Under the pieces are notes generated by a model. The model made no database searches. It saw only the letters and a list, made by a program, of their open reading frames with translations, and was not told the origin of the DNA. The position numbers and the translations under genes are program-made. A DNA stretch of 64,000 nt from Bacteroides caecigallinarum (GTDB taxonomy: Bacteria > Bacteroidota > Bacteroidia > Bacteroidales > Bacteroidaceae), in contig NZ_JADYTF010000002.1 of assembly GCF_021530995.1 (NCBI RefSeq), positions 1 to 64,000 on the forward strand, given 5' to 3'. The stretch's first letter is position 1. Every line of letters begins with the position of its first letter. This document shows, piece by piece, positions 1 to 61,369 of this stretch.

Positions 1-229
1 GCAAGGCATACATGTCCGCATAATAGCCGTTGGGCAGCTTGATACGTTTTTCAGCTTCAAGAGGATTCAAAACTCCACACTTGTACACGGCACGAATGGC
101 GGCACGGAGCGTCGGGGCGATTACCCCGAACAGCTCTACCAGCTCCATTTCATTCATCCATATATTGCCTGTATCAGATGGTATGGTAATTCTACCATAG
201 CTGTCCGTTGTGATTATTTCCCGTTTCAT
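1..229 (-). CDS. Hypothetical protein of the integrative element, 3' part outside the window
   Basis: Partial gene running off the left edge; 76 N-terminal residues are visible, beginning MKREIITTDSYGRITIP. Its ATG (229-227) overlaps the integrase stop codon as ATGA, so its translation is probably coupled to the integrase. The segment WMNEMELVELFGV resembles the start of a small helix-turn-helix region like those in RhuM-type proteins, but this is weak. No function can be assigned. Its position just downstream of the recombinase makes it element cargo or an accessory recombination or regulatory protein (inference). Confidence 0.6.
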   Translation of the reverse strand, partial: MKREIITTDSYGRITIPSDTGNIWMNEMELVELFGVIAPTLRAAIRAVYKCGVLNPLEAEKRIKLPNGYYADMYAL

Positions 230-1455
230 ATCCCTGCCATTTTCACGTTCCCGAATGATTTGCTCAGCTTGTCGCCCAGCATCGTGAGGTCATTATCCAA
301 TTTCTGCACGGTTATCTTCGCATAGATTTGCGTGGTCTCAATGTTCGTATGCCCCAAAATACGGCTGACGCTCTCGATTGGCATCCCTTTGCTGAGAGCC
401 AGGGTCGCAAACCCGTGCCTGGAGCAGTGAAAGCTGATTTTCTTGGTAATACCGCATTCCTTTATCATCTTTCCCATACGCTTGCATATTGACCAATAGT
501 TGAGATTGGGAAATACAAGATTGTTTTCCTGAAAAGCCTTGTAACGCTCGATTATCTGCAAGGGAATATCCAGCAGCTTCACCTGAAACGGTACACCCGT
601 CTTGTGTCGTTTGGAAATAATCCATTTCTCACCGTTCACTTCCACAATTTGGTCGTTGCTTAATTCCTTTATATCCACGAATGAGAGGGCGGTAAAACTG
701 GCGAAAACAAAAATATCACGGAGATAGGAGTTCTTGGGGTCTTTGAACTGAAATTCCATCAATGTTTTCAACTCATTCTCCGTCAGATATTCACGCTCTT
801 TCGTGTTCGGGCTTATATGGAACTGGGCAAACGGATTTCTCGGTATATGTCCGTTGAAATGCGCCCGCATCACCACACCTTTCAACCACATGCAGTTTTC
901 CCATATCGAACCGTTGTGCAGTCTGGCTTCGTTGGAAAGGAACACGGCGAACTCCTTGATGAAGTCGGGCGTAAGTTCAGGCATGGAGATGTCGTTCCGC
1001 TTGTAATGTGACCTGATGAATGCCGCCACATGGTTTCTTGCCCGCACCCTTGCCATATAGGTAGCCCTGACCCTGTCTTTTCCGACACGCTTCTTGAACA
1101 CTTCATTTTCCTTGTCGAAAGCACCGAGCAACGTTTCATACTCACCGCCCAATCCCTGATAGGCATTGCGTACCATTTCTGCCGTTACATACGCTTCACG
1201 GTCGGATATACGCTGGTAATGCTTGATGATTTGAGCCTTGATGTTGTCAAGCGCAAGATTGGTTTCCCTCGCTTCCATACTCTTACCCTTTGCCTTGTTC
1301 CCTTTGGCATCCCAAAGCTCTTTCGGGATAGCTCGCTTGCAGCTAAACTGTGCTACCGTTCCGTTGATTGTAACTCGTCCCATGATGGGGACAATTCCGT
1401 TCTTTTCCTTACTGCCGTTCACGTAGAACAGCACCTTGAATGTGCTTCTTGCCAT
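226..1455 (-). CDS. CTnDOT-type tyrosine recombinase (integrase)
   Basis: 409-residue site-specific recombinase of the Bacteroides conjugative-transposon type. An arm-binding N-terminal domain (about 1-110) and a SAM-like core-binding domain (about 115-215) precede the catalytic domain (about 220-400). Catalytic residues visible are a lysine near K282/K285, the HxxR box H343/R346, H369 in LGHTNIETT and the tyrosine nucleophile Y378. The first catalytic arginine, normally in TGLR, is replaced by S258 in TALSFVDI. IntDOT of CTnDOT is known to have a serine at this place, so this is probably a functional subfamily trait, not decay. The gene reads leftward into the element, and its upstream side faces the att-like core at 1722-1731. 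Confidence 0.93.
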   Translation of the reverse strand: MARSTFKVLFYVNGSKEKNGIVPIMGRVTINGTVAQFSCKRAIPKELWDAKGNKAKGKSMEARETNLALDNIKAQIIKHYQRISDREAYVTAEMVRNAYQGLGGEYETLLGAFDKENEVFKKRVGKDRVRATYMARVRARNHVAAFIRSHYKRNDISMPELTPDFIKEFAVFLSNEARLHNGSIWENCMWLKGVVMRAHFNGHIPRNPFAQFHISPNTKEREYLTENELKTLMEFQFKDPKNSYLRDIFVFASFTALSFVDIKELSNDQIVEVNGEKWIISKRHKTGVPFQVKLLDIPLQIIERYKAFQENNLVFPNLNYWSICKRMGKMIKECGITKKISFHCSRHGFATLALSKGMPIESVSRILGHTNIETTQIYAKITVQKLDNDLTMLGDKLSKSFGNVKMAGI

Positions 1456-1474
1456 ACTCGTTTCTTTTTGGTTG

Positions 1475-1482
1475 CAAAACTA
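1475..1482 (-). promoter_or_regulatory. Putative -7 promoter element of the integrase
   Basis: The minus strand reads TAGTTTTG, a match to the Bacteroides -7 consensus TAnnTTTG, 19 bp before the integrase ATG. No TTTG box lies at the usual 19-21 bp spacing upstream, so the promoter may be weak or factor-dependent. Confidence 0.5.
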
Positions 1483-1547
1483 TAAATCAACGAGTTACCT
1501 ATTGATAAGCAAAGCTGCGCAGAACGCCGCAAAATGAAATAGGGACT

Positions 1548-1690
1548 GTTAAATCTGCACTTTCATCGGGTAATGATTAGGAAACCGTTCTTTTGCTTTA
1601 ATCTGCTTTAAGACGGTTTTCAACTGTCTGCCCAACTTCTGCGTTTTTCCTCTAACTCCCTAATTATCAAATCCTGTTGCGTTAATCTGC
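1548..1690 (+). repeat. Three dispersed TTAA(A)TCTGC repeats near the element end
   Basis: Near-identical 9-11 bp words occur at 1548-1558 (GTTAAATCTGC), 1597-1606 (TTTAATCTGC) and 1681-1690 (GTTAATCTGC), all in the same orientation between the integrase and the att-like core. Repeats in this position are typical of arm-type integrase binding sites in attachment regions. The role is inferred. The rest of the 1456-1748 gap holds no gene. Confidence 0.45.
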
Positions 1691-1721
1691 TGCAATTCGG
1701 CGGATATTCCAGAGATTTTCC

Positions 1722-1731
1722 GTAAGTTTGC
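1722..1731 (+). other. Putative CTnDOT-type attachment core / element-chromosome junction
   Basis: GTAAGTTTGC matches the 10-bp core GTAnnTTTGC shared by CTnDOT and its bacterial target sites. It lies upstream of a CTnDOT-type integrase gene and 17 bp before the ATG of the neighbouring chromosomal gene. The same bases contain TAAGTTTG (1723-1730), a consensus Bacteroides -7 element. The integrated element would therefore end inside the potassium channel promoter, replacing sequence upstream of -7. The matching left junction is outside the window. Confidence 0.6.
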
Positions 1732-1748
1732 TATAATTATTATCAACT

Positions 1749-2564
1749 ATGGAAAAAGGAACAAACGACATCAGTAATCTTCGCGGAAAGCTGAACAGCA
1801 TTATCCGCCATGAAAAACTCTACAGAACTATACACCGTCAGCTAATGAAGAAATGGTTCCAGTATTTCGTACTGTTTTTCATAATAGGGTCTATATTCTC
1901 TATAATTTACAGTTCGTTCGACGAGTCAGAACCATACAGAAGCCGTTTGTTTCTGTTCAATTACCTTGCCTCATTCATTTTCACAATAGAATACATTCTG
2001 CGCCTTATAGCTGCTCCGGTTCAGTATCCGCGTTACAACCGAGCATGGCGTGCCCGCCTACACTACATTTTCTCCTTTTATGGTCTGATAGATTTCGTGG
2101 CGATACTACCTTTTGTTATGATATATGTCTTTACGGGAACTCCTCATATACATCTGGTAGTTCTGGCATATATTCTGATAATATTCAAGCTAATCCGCTA
2201 TTCACGTTCATTCCAGATGATAGGTACAGTGCTTCAAACCGTTAAAGAGGAACTCATCACATCATATACCGCATGCGGCATCATGCTGGGTTTCTCCGGA
2301 ATACTGATGTATTACATAGAGCGAAACGCACAGCCTCATGCATTCGAAAACATCGGCGACGGATTCTGGTGGGCCATAGTGGCATTCACTACTGTGGGAT
2401 ACGGCGATATATATCCTATTACTCCCCTTGGCCGTTTACTTAGCAGTCTTATAAGCCTGATAGGTATTGCCATGATTGCAATTCCGACCGGTATCATAAG
2501 TTCAGCTTTCATGAACATGCTTATAGAGAAAAAGCAGAAAGCCGAAAAGGAAAAACAGGAATAA
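1749..2564 (+). CDS. Voltage-gated-like potassium channel, six-TM
   Basis: 271-residue inner-membrane ion channel. Six predicted membrane segments can be read: S1 about 37-55, S2 about 68-88, S3 about 108-128, S4 about 136-156, a pore helix ending in the selectivity filter TVGYGD (215-220), and an inner helix about 233-255. S4 carries only a few basic residues (K147, R150, R153), so voltage sensing may be weak. A short charged coiled tail (about 260-271) ends the protein and no RCK domain is present. It stands alone: its promoter region overlaps the att-like core of the mobile element and a terminator hairpin follows. Confidence 0.9.
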   Translation: MEKGTNDISNLRGKLNSIIRHEKLYRTIHRQLMKKWFQYFVLFFIIGSIFSIIYSSFDESEPYRSRLFLFNYLASFIFTIEYILRLIAAPVQYPRYNRAWRARLHYIFSFYGLIDFVAILPFVMIYVFTGTPHIHLVVLAYILIIFKLIRYSRSFQMIGTVLQTVKEELITSYTACGIMLGFSGILMYYIERNAQPHAFENIGDGFWWAIVAFTTVGYGDIYPITPLGRLLSSLISLIGIAMIAIPTGIISSAFMNMLIEKKQKAEKEKQE

Positions 2565-2577
2565 TCATATAGAATAG

Positions 2578-2615
2578 AAAAATGGCTGCACCATAGTTCC
2601 GATGCAGCCATTTTT
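2578..2615. terminator. Bidirectional intrinsic terminator
   Basis: AAAAATGGCTGCA pairs with TGCAGCCATTTTT across a 12-base loop. It lies between the convergent potassium channel and S41 protease genes, with A and T tracts that serve both strands. Confidence 0.9.
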
Positions 2616-2645
2616 CTATTATCACTTTACATGTTTCTGTGTCTG

Positions 2646-5600
2646 TCACTTGATTGTCTTAAGCATTTCCTTCACTGCAGCTTCCAGCTGTCTGTCCTCG
2701 CCTCTCAATACTTCTTCAGGCGAATTATAGACTTCAATATCAGGCTGAAGCTCCTTGTTTTCAAGATATTCGCCGCGCATATCCATACATCCCACCTGAG
2801 GTATACCGAAGACAATACTTGGGTCAATCTGTCTTTCCCACCATACGGCAGTCATTGTTCCCGGAACTGGTGTTCCGATAAGCTTACCTATGCCCAATTC
2901 CTTATATACCCATGGGAAACCGTGGGCGTTACTGTAGTTGTCCTCACATACAAGAACGCATGACGGTTTGAGCCACTTGTTGAACGGGTCACTGCCGATA
3001 TACTGTCCTCTAGGAACGAACCTCTGATATTCCTTCCCGCTGAGAAGTGTGACCAAATCATCATGCAACCATCCACCGCCATTATGACGAGTATCAACTA
3101 TCACAGCATCCTTCGTTCTGTTCTTCTCGCTCAGCAACTCGCTATATACAGTACGGAAGCTAGGACTATCCATTCCCTGAACATGCACGTATGCCACACG
3201 TCCACCGGAAAGTTTCTCAACTATCTGTTCATTTCGTCTTACCCATCTCTTATAGAGTAAATTGGACTGTTCGCCTGCACTGATTGCCTTTACCGTAACA
3301 TCGAAACGTTTCTTGGTTTCAGGGTTATACACTGAAAGAAGCACCTTCTTGCCAGCCTTACCTTCCAGCATCGGGTAATAATCGACACCTGCCAATATCT
3401 TCTCGCCATCTATCTTTTCGATGATACATCCTTCGGTTACACCTGTCTTCTTTACAGCAAAAGGTCCTTTGGCAATTATTTCCTTTATCTTCAGACCGTC
3501 TCCTGTATATTCATTGTCATAGAACACGCCAAGACACGCTGTAGGGAATGAAGTACCGGCCGCATAATATCTTGCTCCGGTGTGGGAACCGTTAAGCTCG
3601 CCAAGCAACTCACTCAGCATTTCCTGGAAGTCATAATTATTGTTTATATATGGCAGGAAACGCTTGTAGTTTTCGTAATAGCCTTTCCAGTCAACTCCAT
3701 GCAGATCGGCTACATAGAATTTGTCTTCCACCTGCTTCCAGATGTGATTGAACATATACAGGCGTTCCTCATACGGACGATAATTGAAAGGAGCACTGAA
3801 CTCAACATCCTTCGACTCGCCTTTCTCCATATTCACTTTCTTGATAGAAGAATTGCAGAGATAGAGATTCTCCTGTTTCTTGTCAGTCATCATGACCCCG
3901 TAACCAATCTTTTTCATAACGATTGAAGTCTTGTTCTCCTTCAAGTCGTGCATCCAGAGATCATAACCGCCCTCGAATGCAGCCTGATAGTAAAGCTTGT
4001 CCCCCTTGGCAGAAAGTACGGCATCACCAAGTCTGGAAGAATTAACAGTCAGACGGATAATTCTGTCACGACAGTTTTCAAGGTCGAATACCAAAGGCTT
4101 GACTTCGTCTTCCTTATCCTTCTTTTCATCTTTCTTCTTTCCTTTTTTCTTTTCGTTTTCCTTCTTCTCCGCATCCTCTTTATCTTTCTTTTCCTGTTCT
4201 TCCACAAGGGCAAGCTCTTCCTTGCTCATGCGGAAACGTTCGTAAGCGTCAAGGTCGAAAAACATGATATAAACATCATCCTCAGAACCCCAACTGCCGT
4301 GACTGCGATAACCCGCACGGTCGCTTTTCCATATCATAGCCTTACCGCCCAGAACCCATTTCGCATCTCCGTCAGTATATCCGCTCTGAGTAAGATTATG
4401 TATTTCACCATTGCCTGACGCATTGACCAGTGCAACGTCATTATTGTTCCAGCCCCCATGACCGATATATCCCGAAAGGAGCCAACGGCTGTCAGGGCTC
4501 CATTCAAACCACTGGTCACCGTCACTATAAGAATATTCAAACTTACCATCCATTACTGTGCGAACTGCCTTTGTCTTCAGATTAAGAACACGTAATGTTG
4601 TTCTGTTTTCAAGAAAGGCCACTTCCTTGCCGTCAGGGCTATACTGAGGCTGGAATGAAGTCACATTACTGTTTACCAGTCTTTCTTCCTTGAATTCATT
4701 GACATATGTAAACAACTCATCTTCTTTATTAACCAACGAGGTCTGATATATCTGCCACAGACCGTTTCGTTCAGACGCATATACTATACTCCTTCCGTCA
4801 GGCGAGAAATCTATATCCCTCTCCTGCTCCGGAGTGTCGGTAATATGTTTTGTGGTTTTATATTCTACAGATGTGACATATACATCGCCACGCAAGATGA
4901 AAGCTATTTCCTTGCCTTCAGGAGATACTGAAATCTCTGTAGCGCCTGACGACTTCAGCCATTTCACGAGATGTTTGTCATAACTGTCGGACACGATGCT
5001 GACATTGACTTTCTTCGGAGATTCACCTTCTTTCACTGTATAGATTTCTCCATTGAACCCATAGCACAAAGTTCCGTTTGAAGCTACTGAAAGGAAACGT
5101 ACAGGATGGTCGGTATGAGATGTCAGACGTGTTATGTTCTTACCTTCAAGATCCGATTTATAGATATTGAAACTACCTTCCCTCTCGCTCAGATAATAGA
5201 ACGATTTTCCGTCCGGAGTCCATACAGGAGTTCTGTCTTCACCATCGAAAGAAGTGATTTTCCTGTAACTTTTTGCTGCCCCTTCCTGCTCTGTGCAAAG
5301 CCAAATATCACGTGTAATGGATGATGTGTGATGCTTTCTCCAGGCATCTTCATATCCCTTCTTGTCATGATAAAGAAGAGACTTGCCATCAGGACTTACA
5401 CTGATATCCTCCATAGGAATAGACGAGAACATTACAGGTCTGCCCCCATCTGTTCCTACTTCATATATCTGCGGGAACTGTGAACTGGGGAAAGTCATAT
5501 CCTGAGCATCAGGCATAACTACAGCCTGAAAAAGCACATGACTGTTGTCGCTAAAAGCGTATGGCACCTCATTCCCGGAATGAGTGGTAAGTCTTCGTGG

Positions 5601-45826: not shown

Positions 45827-45854
45827 TATATTATAAGTTTGTGAAACGATACTG

Positions 45855-45885
45855 CAAAGATACAATTAAGTGTATAATTCACAAT
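45855..45885 (-). promoter_or_regulatory. Promoter of the GH127 gene
   Basis: Minus strand: TATCTTTG (45862-45855) with ATTG (45885-45882) 19 bp upstream. It places transcription just ahead of the ATG at 45826. Confidence 0.65.
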
Positions 45886-60505: not shown

Positions 60506-60805
60506 TTACCAGCTTGCTTTCTTAACACCAGGAATCAAACCGTTTGAAGCCATTTCACGGAATTGTATACGTGAAATTCCGAACTGACGCATATAACCTT
60601 TTGGACGTCCAGTAAGTTTGCAACGATTATGCAAACGTATCGGATTTGAATTCTTAGGCAGGTCCTGCAATTTCTGAGCTGCTTCAAAAGCTTCTACAGG
60701 GTCACCTGTGTTAACGATTTTCTTGAGTGCAGCACGCTTCTCAGCATATTTTGCAACAAGTTTAGCTCTTTTTACTTCACGAGCTTTCATTGATTCTTTT
60801 GCCAT
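60506..60805 (-). CDS. rpsN: 30S ribosomal protein S14
   Basis: 99 residues, the long form. [20 protein letters not shown] is the signature. With a single cysteine it is the zinc-independent (C-) type. Lies 6 bp after rplE. Confidence 0.97.
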
Positions 60806-60811
60806 AGCTTA

Positions 60812-61369
60812 TCAATCTTTTTTAGCGTTTTTAAACGGTAAACCGAATTCTTTCAAAAGAGCATATCCTTCTTCATCAGTCTGAGCAGAAGTCACGAAAG
60901 TGATGTTCATACCCAAGATTTTAGTAATGCTGTCGATGTTGATTTCAGGGAAGATAATCTGTTCCTGAATACCCAAAGTATAGTTACCTCTACCATCGAA
61001 CTTACTTTCAATACCTTTGAAGTCACGGATACGTGGCAATGCAACACGTACAAGTTTTTCAAGGAATTCATACATTCTCTCACGACGCAAAGTTACCATT
61101 ACACCGATAGGCATTTTTTTACGTAACTTGAAGTTTGCGATATCTTTGCGAGATACAGTTGCTACAGCTTTCTGACCAGTAATAGCAGTCAATTCATTAA
61201 TAGCAACGTCAATGATCTTCTTATCGGCTACAGCCATTCCCAATCCCTGATTGATAACAATCTTTTTAAGAACAGGAATCTGCATTGTCGAAGAATACTG
61301 GAATTGATTCTTCAATGCTGGAGCTATACGCTCAGCATATTCTTTCTTAAGGCTTGCAGTATTACTCAT
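60812..61369 (-). CDS. rplE: 50S ribosomal protein L5
   Basis: 185 residues; [17 protein letters not shown] and [20 protein letters not shown] are typical. Binds 5S rRNA and contacts P-site tRNA. Lies 3 bp after rplX. Confidence 0.97.

Follow-up and report, generated by a model that had tools for sequence, protein, structure and literature searches.

The locus examined here is the 10-bp sequence GTAAGTTTGC, located between an integrase gene and a potassium channel gene. The window, i.e. the whole stretch of 64 kb of Bacteroides caecigallinarum DNA analysed here, is contig C207 from its base 1, in a draft assembly of 392 contigs; since the contig begins at this base, the remainder of the element is located elsewhere. 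A sequence-only reading had pointed to a core fitting GTAnnTTTGC and containing the -7 element, and both are present on the + strand, GTAAGTTTGC enclosing TAAGTTTG. GTAnnTTTGC is the core of CTnDOT. On its own, such a match is weak evidence for a boundary: the motif occurs 7 times in the 64-kb window against 2.3 expected, a mild enrichment consistent with GTAnnTTTGC being a piece of the promoter consensus. Other matches, at 60612-60621, 45854-45863 and 61087-61096, are possible vacant attachment sites. Within the 276-bp element end, the sole outward TAnnTTTG is the one at 1723-1730.

The evidence becomes strong because the sequence 1456-1730 recurs elsewhere and stops at the core, and because an empty site exists. 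Among 100 related genomes searched, many carry 96-100% matches to this sequence beside the same integrase, each ending at the core, as the earlier reading had supposed for the element; in further subfamilies, the terminal region is 73-83% identical and likewise ends there. These comparisons show that the 10-bp core marks a genuine boundary of an element: very probably, a small integrative and mobilizable element has inserted in the channel promoter with its int-end junction at 1722-1731, the integrase site corresponding approximately to the extended -7 region and the box being rebuilt on insertion. The features of the locus are collected in Table 1.

Table 1. Features at the element-channel junction (positions in the window).
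Feature	Position	Strand	Basis
Part of small gene that in siblings comes after int	1..229	-	75% DNA match to own contig C76
Int-end part of element	1..1719	.	Second int-end copy in own genome, 98% (C6:1-1278); end recurs in many relatives
Tyrosine integrase, 409 aa, IntCTnDOT type	226..1455	-	Pfam Phage_integrase, Arm-DNA-bind_5, Phage_int_SAM_5
Element terminal region up to left core arm (...GATTTT)	1456..1719	+	Identity across junctions, ending at core
Putative -7 box of int, TAGTTTTG	1475..1482	-	19 bp ahead of int ATG
T-run of left core arm	1716..1719	+	Matches T-rich -7..-4 position before TAnnTTTG in local promoters
Putative coupling (overlap) region, 7 bp, CCGTAAG	1720..1726	+	Sibling near and far junctions differ there
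Attachment core GTAAGTTTGC	1722..1731	+	Host-derived at least for TTTGC
Predicted -7 box of channel promoter, TAAGTTTG	1723..1730	+	Retained in empty site G053
Potassium channel (kch), 271 aa, TVGYGD filter	1749..2564	+	Pfam Ion_trans 2.2e-30, Ion_trans_2 2.8e-16

The empty site is provided by a close relative, G053, in which the kch locus is found without the element and matches the window 1716-2800 at 98%, the similarity beginning at 1716. In the alignment (G053 ...aataacaagtttttttcCTAAGTTTGCtataattattatcaactATGG, window ...gatattccagagattttccGTAAGTTTGCtataattattatcaactATGG), both sequences are identical from TAAGTTTGC on and unrelated upstream; therefore the upstream DNA was wholly replaced by the element, whereas TAAGTTTGC and the leader are host sequence. 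The core of G053 reads CTAAGTTTGC, with C for G as first base, which indicates that the first G of the core is not conserved while TAAGTTTGC is. The region 1456-1721 is absent from this integrase-free relative, and the claim that integration keeps the -7 box while exchanging everything upstream is thus borne out. Orthologous empty sites were also found for other insertions: hppA in G022, trk in G027, a glucosaminidase gene in G021 and G027, and trkH in G022. The hppA site of G022 was first suspected to be occupied by another element, its upstream DNA resembling an element end; the neighbouring gene looks like an aconitase gene, hence the site is empty.

Both junctions of the same insertion were read for hppA in G007 (8.3-kb element), for trk in G045 (ttttttCGTAAAATCTGTATAAGG) and for a glucosaminidase gene of the window's own genome (junction ttttttCCGTAAATCTGTATAAGG on C37, pairing with C6), and were recognised by pattern for G007 trkH, G052 rnz, contig C130 of G045 and G034. 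For hppA of B. mediterraneensis, the empty site (G022) reads gattttttGTAAGTTTGAgg, the int-side junction gattttTTGTAAGTTTGAgg and the far junction gattttCCGTAAATCTGTATAAGG. The second GTAnnTTTGC copy expected earlier at the far end did not hold for the siblings, whose far-end core reads GTAAATCTGT or GTAAAATCTGT (GTAnnTCTGT). On the far sides of the G007 trkH (L075, ~7823) and G052 rnz (L079, ~8646) insertions, the host left arm aaggttattccRgagatttt resembles int ends seen in a different subfamily (e.g. L191, L192, L196), which hints at tandem or successive insertions. In G034 (L090, 16622-19888), a decayed element of 3.3 kb keeps both ends, with a truncated integrase gene beside relaxase remnants.

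As for the window copy, the syntenic host contig C391, found via synteny with G053, carries carB and then a 9-copy repeat; the far end is unassembled because C391 enters this multicopy repeat ~38 bp short of the core. The repeat (L058, 2209-2334), starting with TAGATTCCAAAACGAAGTGCAACG, lies at 9 places in the draft, mostly at contig ends, and is probably an IS. A search with the spacer from the C391 far end returned no other occurrence. Another far end of the same genome, on C349, was weighed as the partner of the window int end; on its host side, however, lies a different locus, next to a gene resembling those for bile-acid transporters and an older stretch that looks like an element. There (L174, 2002-2930), the far end with SMR/MFS cargo abuts a stretch holding a degenerate far-end-like sequence, an arrangement which suggests repeated insertions at one spot.

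The earlier reading had also placed an IntDOT-like gene beside the core and pointing away from it. This gene encodes an integrase with arm-binding, SAM-like core-binding and catalytic domains, whose relatives are nearly all from Bacteroidota. Motifs read by eye show that the box I arginine is replaced by serine (TALSF at 255) and that the remaining catalytic residues are kept (RHKTG at 283, HCSRHG at 343, LGHTNIETTQIY at 367). The box I arginine is also missing in the CTnDOT, ERL and Tn5520 integrases, in the IntCTnDOT subgroup (PMC8138268), and the window integrase, judged by these motifs and domains, fits this subgroup of tyrosine recombinases. The small gene following int is intact in G007, where it adjoins int and encodes 123 aa; it gave no Pfam match, and an excisionase-like role would be a guess.

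Complete sibling elements are mostly 5-9 kb long. The 8.3-kb sibling G007a carries HTH, N6-methylase, specificity-subunit-like, Mob_Pre relaxase and small ORFs together with the integrase, and G007b has a relaxase, a DUF5906 protein and the integrase, along with ORFs resembling MFS and SMR transporters. Neither of these two siblings has transfer genes or a mating apparatus, which, together with the MobV relaxase, indicates integrative and mobilizable elements and not CTnDOT. The element of the window is thus most likely a small mobilizable element, to judge from its siblings, rather than the CTnDOT-type conjugative transposon proposed before. Megablast of window 1-2800 gave no match against phages and nothing beyond 77% integrase matches against plasmids, and a scan of viral contigs returned a single distant relative, so that no phage link was seen.

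The channel gene is one target among many. In twenty loci that were retrieved, 19 more junctions with related ends were found, mostly at different genes and nearly all shortly before a start codon, and a scan of genome contigs added Bacteroides caecigallinarum, B. mediterraneensis, B. ilei, B. salyersiae, Phocaeicola coprocola, P. barnesiae, Mediterranea and Parabacteroides. A junction was scored as positive when an ATG opening at least 100 codons lay within 60 bp downstream, which was the case at 26/34 scorable junctions of the first set and at 10 of the 17 further distinct junctions from a search across the order Bacteroidales (raw count 11/18, one being a repeat of an earlier junction). In total, 36 of the 51 distinct int-end junctions are followed by a start codon within 60 bp, compared with 17/68 for the reversed motif (p = 9e-7), figures which are approximate because gene calls are ORF-based and the junctions partly related. 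By this simple ORF criterion, approximately 30% of the junctions have no start close by, and the core is degenerate in a few. Among the targets, genes for phosphoglycerate kinase, ribonuclease Z, nicotinate phosphoribosyltransferase, UDP-galactopyranose mutase, a DEAD-box helicase and a proton pyrophosphatase were recognised by their predicted products, as was that for chorismate synthase, whose start is just past the 60-bp limit; the starts of these recognised products look like true N-termini. The promoter of the glucosaminidase gene is a hot spot, the same base being hit in three genomes by two element subfamilies (L039, L045, L052). The insertion pattern is general, with many other genes hit like the channel gene, a point absent from the sequence-only reading. 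Elements with integrases at 61-82% identity likewise sit at promoters; for integrases below ~45% identity, the core and start pattern was not seen among those checked.

An extended sigma-ABfr -7 consensus was derived from 129-137 local promoters, i.e. TAnnTTTG sites just upstream of genes in ~620-650 kb of Bacteroidales DNA. These promoters have a T-run at -7..-4, pyrimidines at -3/-2, often a G at -1, a C or T after TTTG, and a TTG peak 19-20 bp upstream of TA. The attachment site TTTT-nnGTAnn-TTTGY is very close to this consensus: the T-run is found in 62/137 promoters against 38/339 in-gene sites (p = 3e-15), and the attB-like motif in 22/137 against 9/339 (p = 6e-7), counts that are again approximate. 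As the attachment site overlaps the extended -7 consensus, promoter targeting follows from sequence specificity. The same data leave room for a rival explanation, in which the integrase needs only GTAnnTTTGY, usable copies are mostly promoters, gene-breaking insertions are lost, and the element ends are not adapted to promoters. This coincidence of motif, with a possible survivor bias, is a serious contender that we hold slightly below even chances: of 38 background copies of the extended motif, 22 stand at promoters, a fraction not significantly lower than that of the insertions (36/51, p = 0.26), but the left arm GATTTT agrees as well with the T-rich position of promoters and the elements at 61-82% integrase identity behave alike, two observations which fall short of proving selection.

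A second alternative is that the element end provides upstream promoter or regulator sites and brings the channel under element control. TAnnTTTG is the sigma-ABfr -7 box (PMC7366714; PMC9723704), and TAAGTTTG would fall 12-5 bp before the channel transcription start expected near 1735 (numbering of PMC9723704), the ORF starting 17 bp past the core. All native DNA upstream of this box is replaced by conserved element sequence, and a second subfamily has a TTTG 23 bp upstream of TA, as promoter capture would have it. However, the TTTG near -33 is lacking: neither the element end nor the reconstructed empty sites, G053 included, have a TTG at the usual distance of 19-20 bp before the -7 box (in F. 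johnsoniae, the -33 was not found either, PMC7366714). Little -33 information may therefore be lost or gained, and insertion may be roughly neutral; furthermore, many targets look like housekeeping genes, suggesting tolerance rather than rewiring. Capture of the channel promoter thus appears unlikely. Downstream, an inverted repeat at 2573-2620, between the channel gene and a convergent tricorn-like protease gene, is probably a shared terminator. Guidance of the integrase by RNA polymerase, sigma factor or open promoter DNA is very improbable, since the excess of promoter insertions over the 10-bp motif alone (36/51 against 62/129 occurrences near starts, p = 0.008) loses significance once the T-run is included, sequence specificity being sufficient and the data showing no targeting beyond it.

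We lean, with modest preference, towards a Bacteroidales clade of mobilizable elements that uses the housekeeping -7 box as attachment site, with ends shaped like the flank of the box, each insertion regenerating a working promoter. In the mechanism that we propose, the integrase would recognise TTTT-nnGTAnn-TTTGY, a sequence largely shared with the extended -7 region of sigma-ABfr promoters, which would therefore often be the target; the arms would be TTTT and TTTGY on the host and GATTTT and TCTGT on the element. Strand exchange would take place across a short variable coupling region (probably the 7 bp nnGTAnn), which may differ between partners; in CTnDOT, the coupling region need not match between partners. 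The GATTTT end of the element would be joined to the host TTTGY, rebuilding the T-run, TAnnTTTG and start region before the host gene, and the native DNA further upstream would be shifted to the far side of the element. A circular intermediate would have the predicted junction GATTTT-7 bp-TCTGTATAAGG. The exact points of cleavage and the continued transcription of the gene downstream are inferred. The -7 box is rebuilt since TTTG is always host-derived and nearly all versions of the overlap contain TA, and the far arm, which carries TCTG, would give the upstream part of the host no good -7 box to drive the element. Rebuilding the key sequence of a promoter may let the elements settle before genes without silencing them.

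Several known systems are comparable. CTnDOT shares an integrase with an arm-binding domain and without the box I arginine, and a core resembling GTAnnTTTGC, whereas the siblings here are mostly 5-9 kb, with a far core GTAnnTCTGT and many targets, the two that were read having a MobV relaxase and no transfer apparatus. Tn5520, Tn4555 and NBU1 have a single tyrosine integrase plus a mobilization gene (PMC5704250, PMC8138268) but are set apart by their described targets, which are AT-rich regions, two preferred sites or specific sites and not -7 boxes; Tn5520 inserts into AT-rich regions with low site specificity (PMC5704250). ICEs targeting promoters are already known: TnGBS and relatives, which use a DDE transposase, target the promoters of many genes in an oriented manner, inserting 15-17 bp ahead of sigma-A promoters (PMC3942029). 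TnGBS/ISLre2 insert 15-17 bp upstream of the -35 and leave the promoter whole, whereas the elements described here cut in and rebuild the -7 box. No tyrosine integrase cutting within a -7 box and regenerating it was found in the literature searched, the original CTnDOT papers lying outside it, and this mode of insertion provisionally looks new.

If this reading is true, these elements would parallel, at promoters, the integrases that restore tRNA 3' ends, and any Bacteroidales host would offer them a very large number of safe sites, which would explain how IntDOT-like elements insert in many places and are yet tolerated. A simple rule would then predict insertion sites, and hence the genes possibly rewired in gut Bacteroidales. 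The upstream part having been naturally swapped dozens of times, these insertions also let the sufficiency of the -7 region alone for sigma-ABfr promoters be tested.
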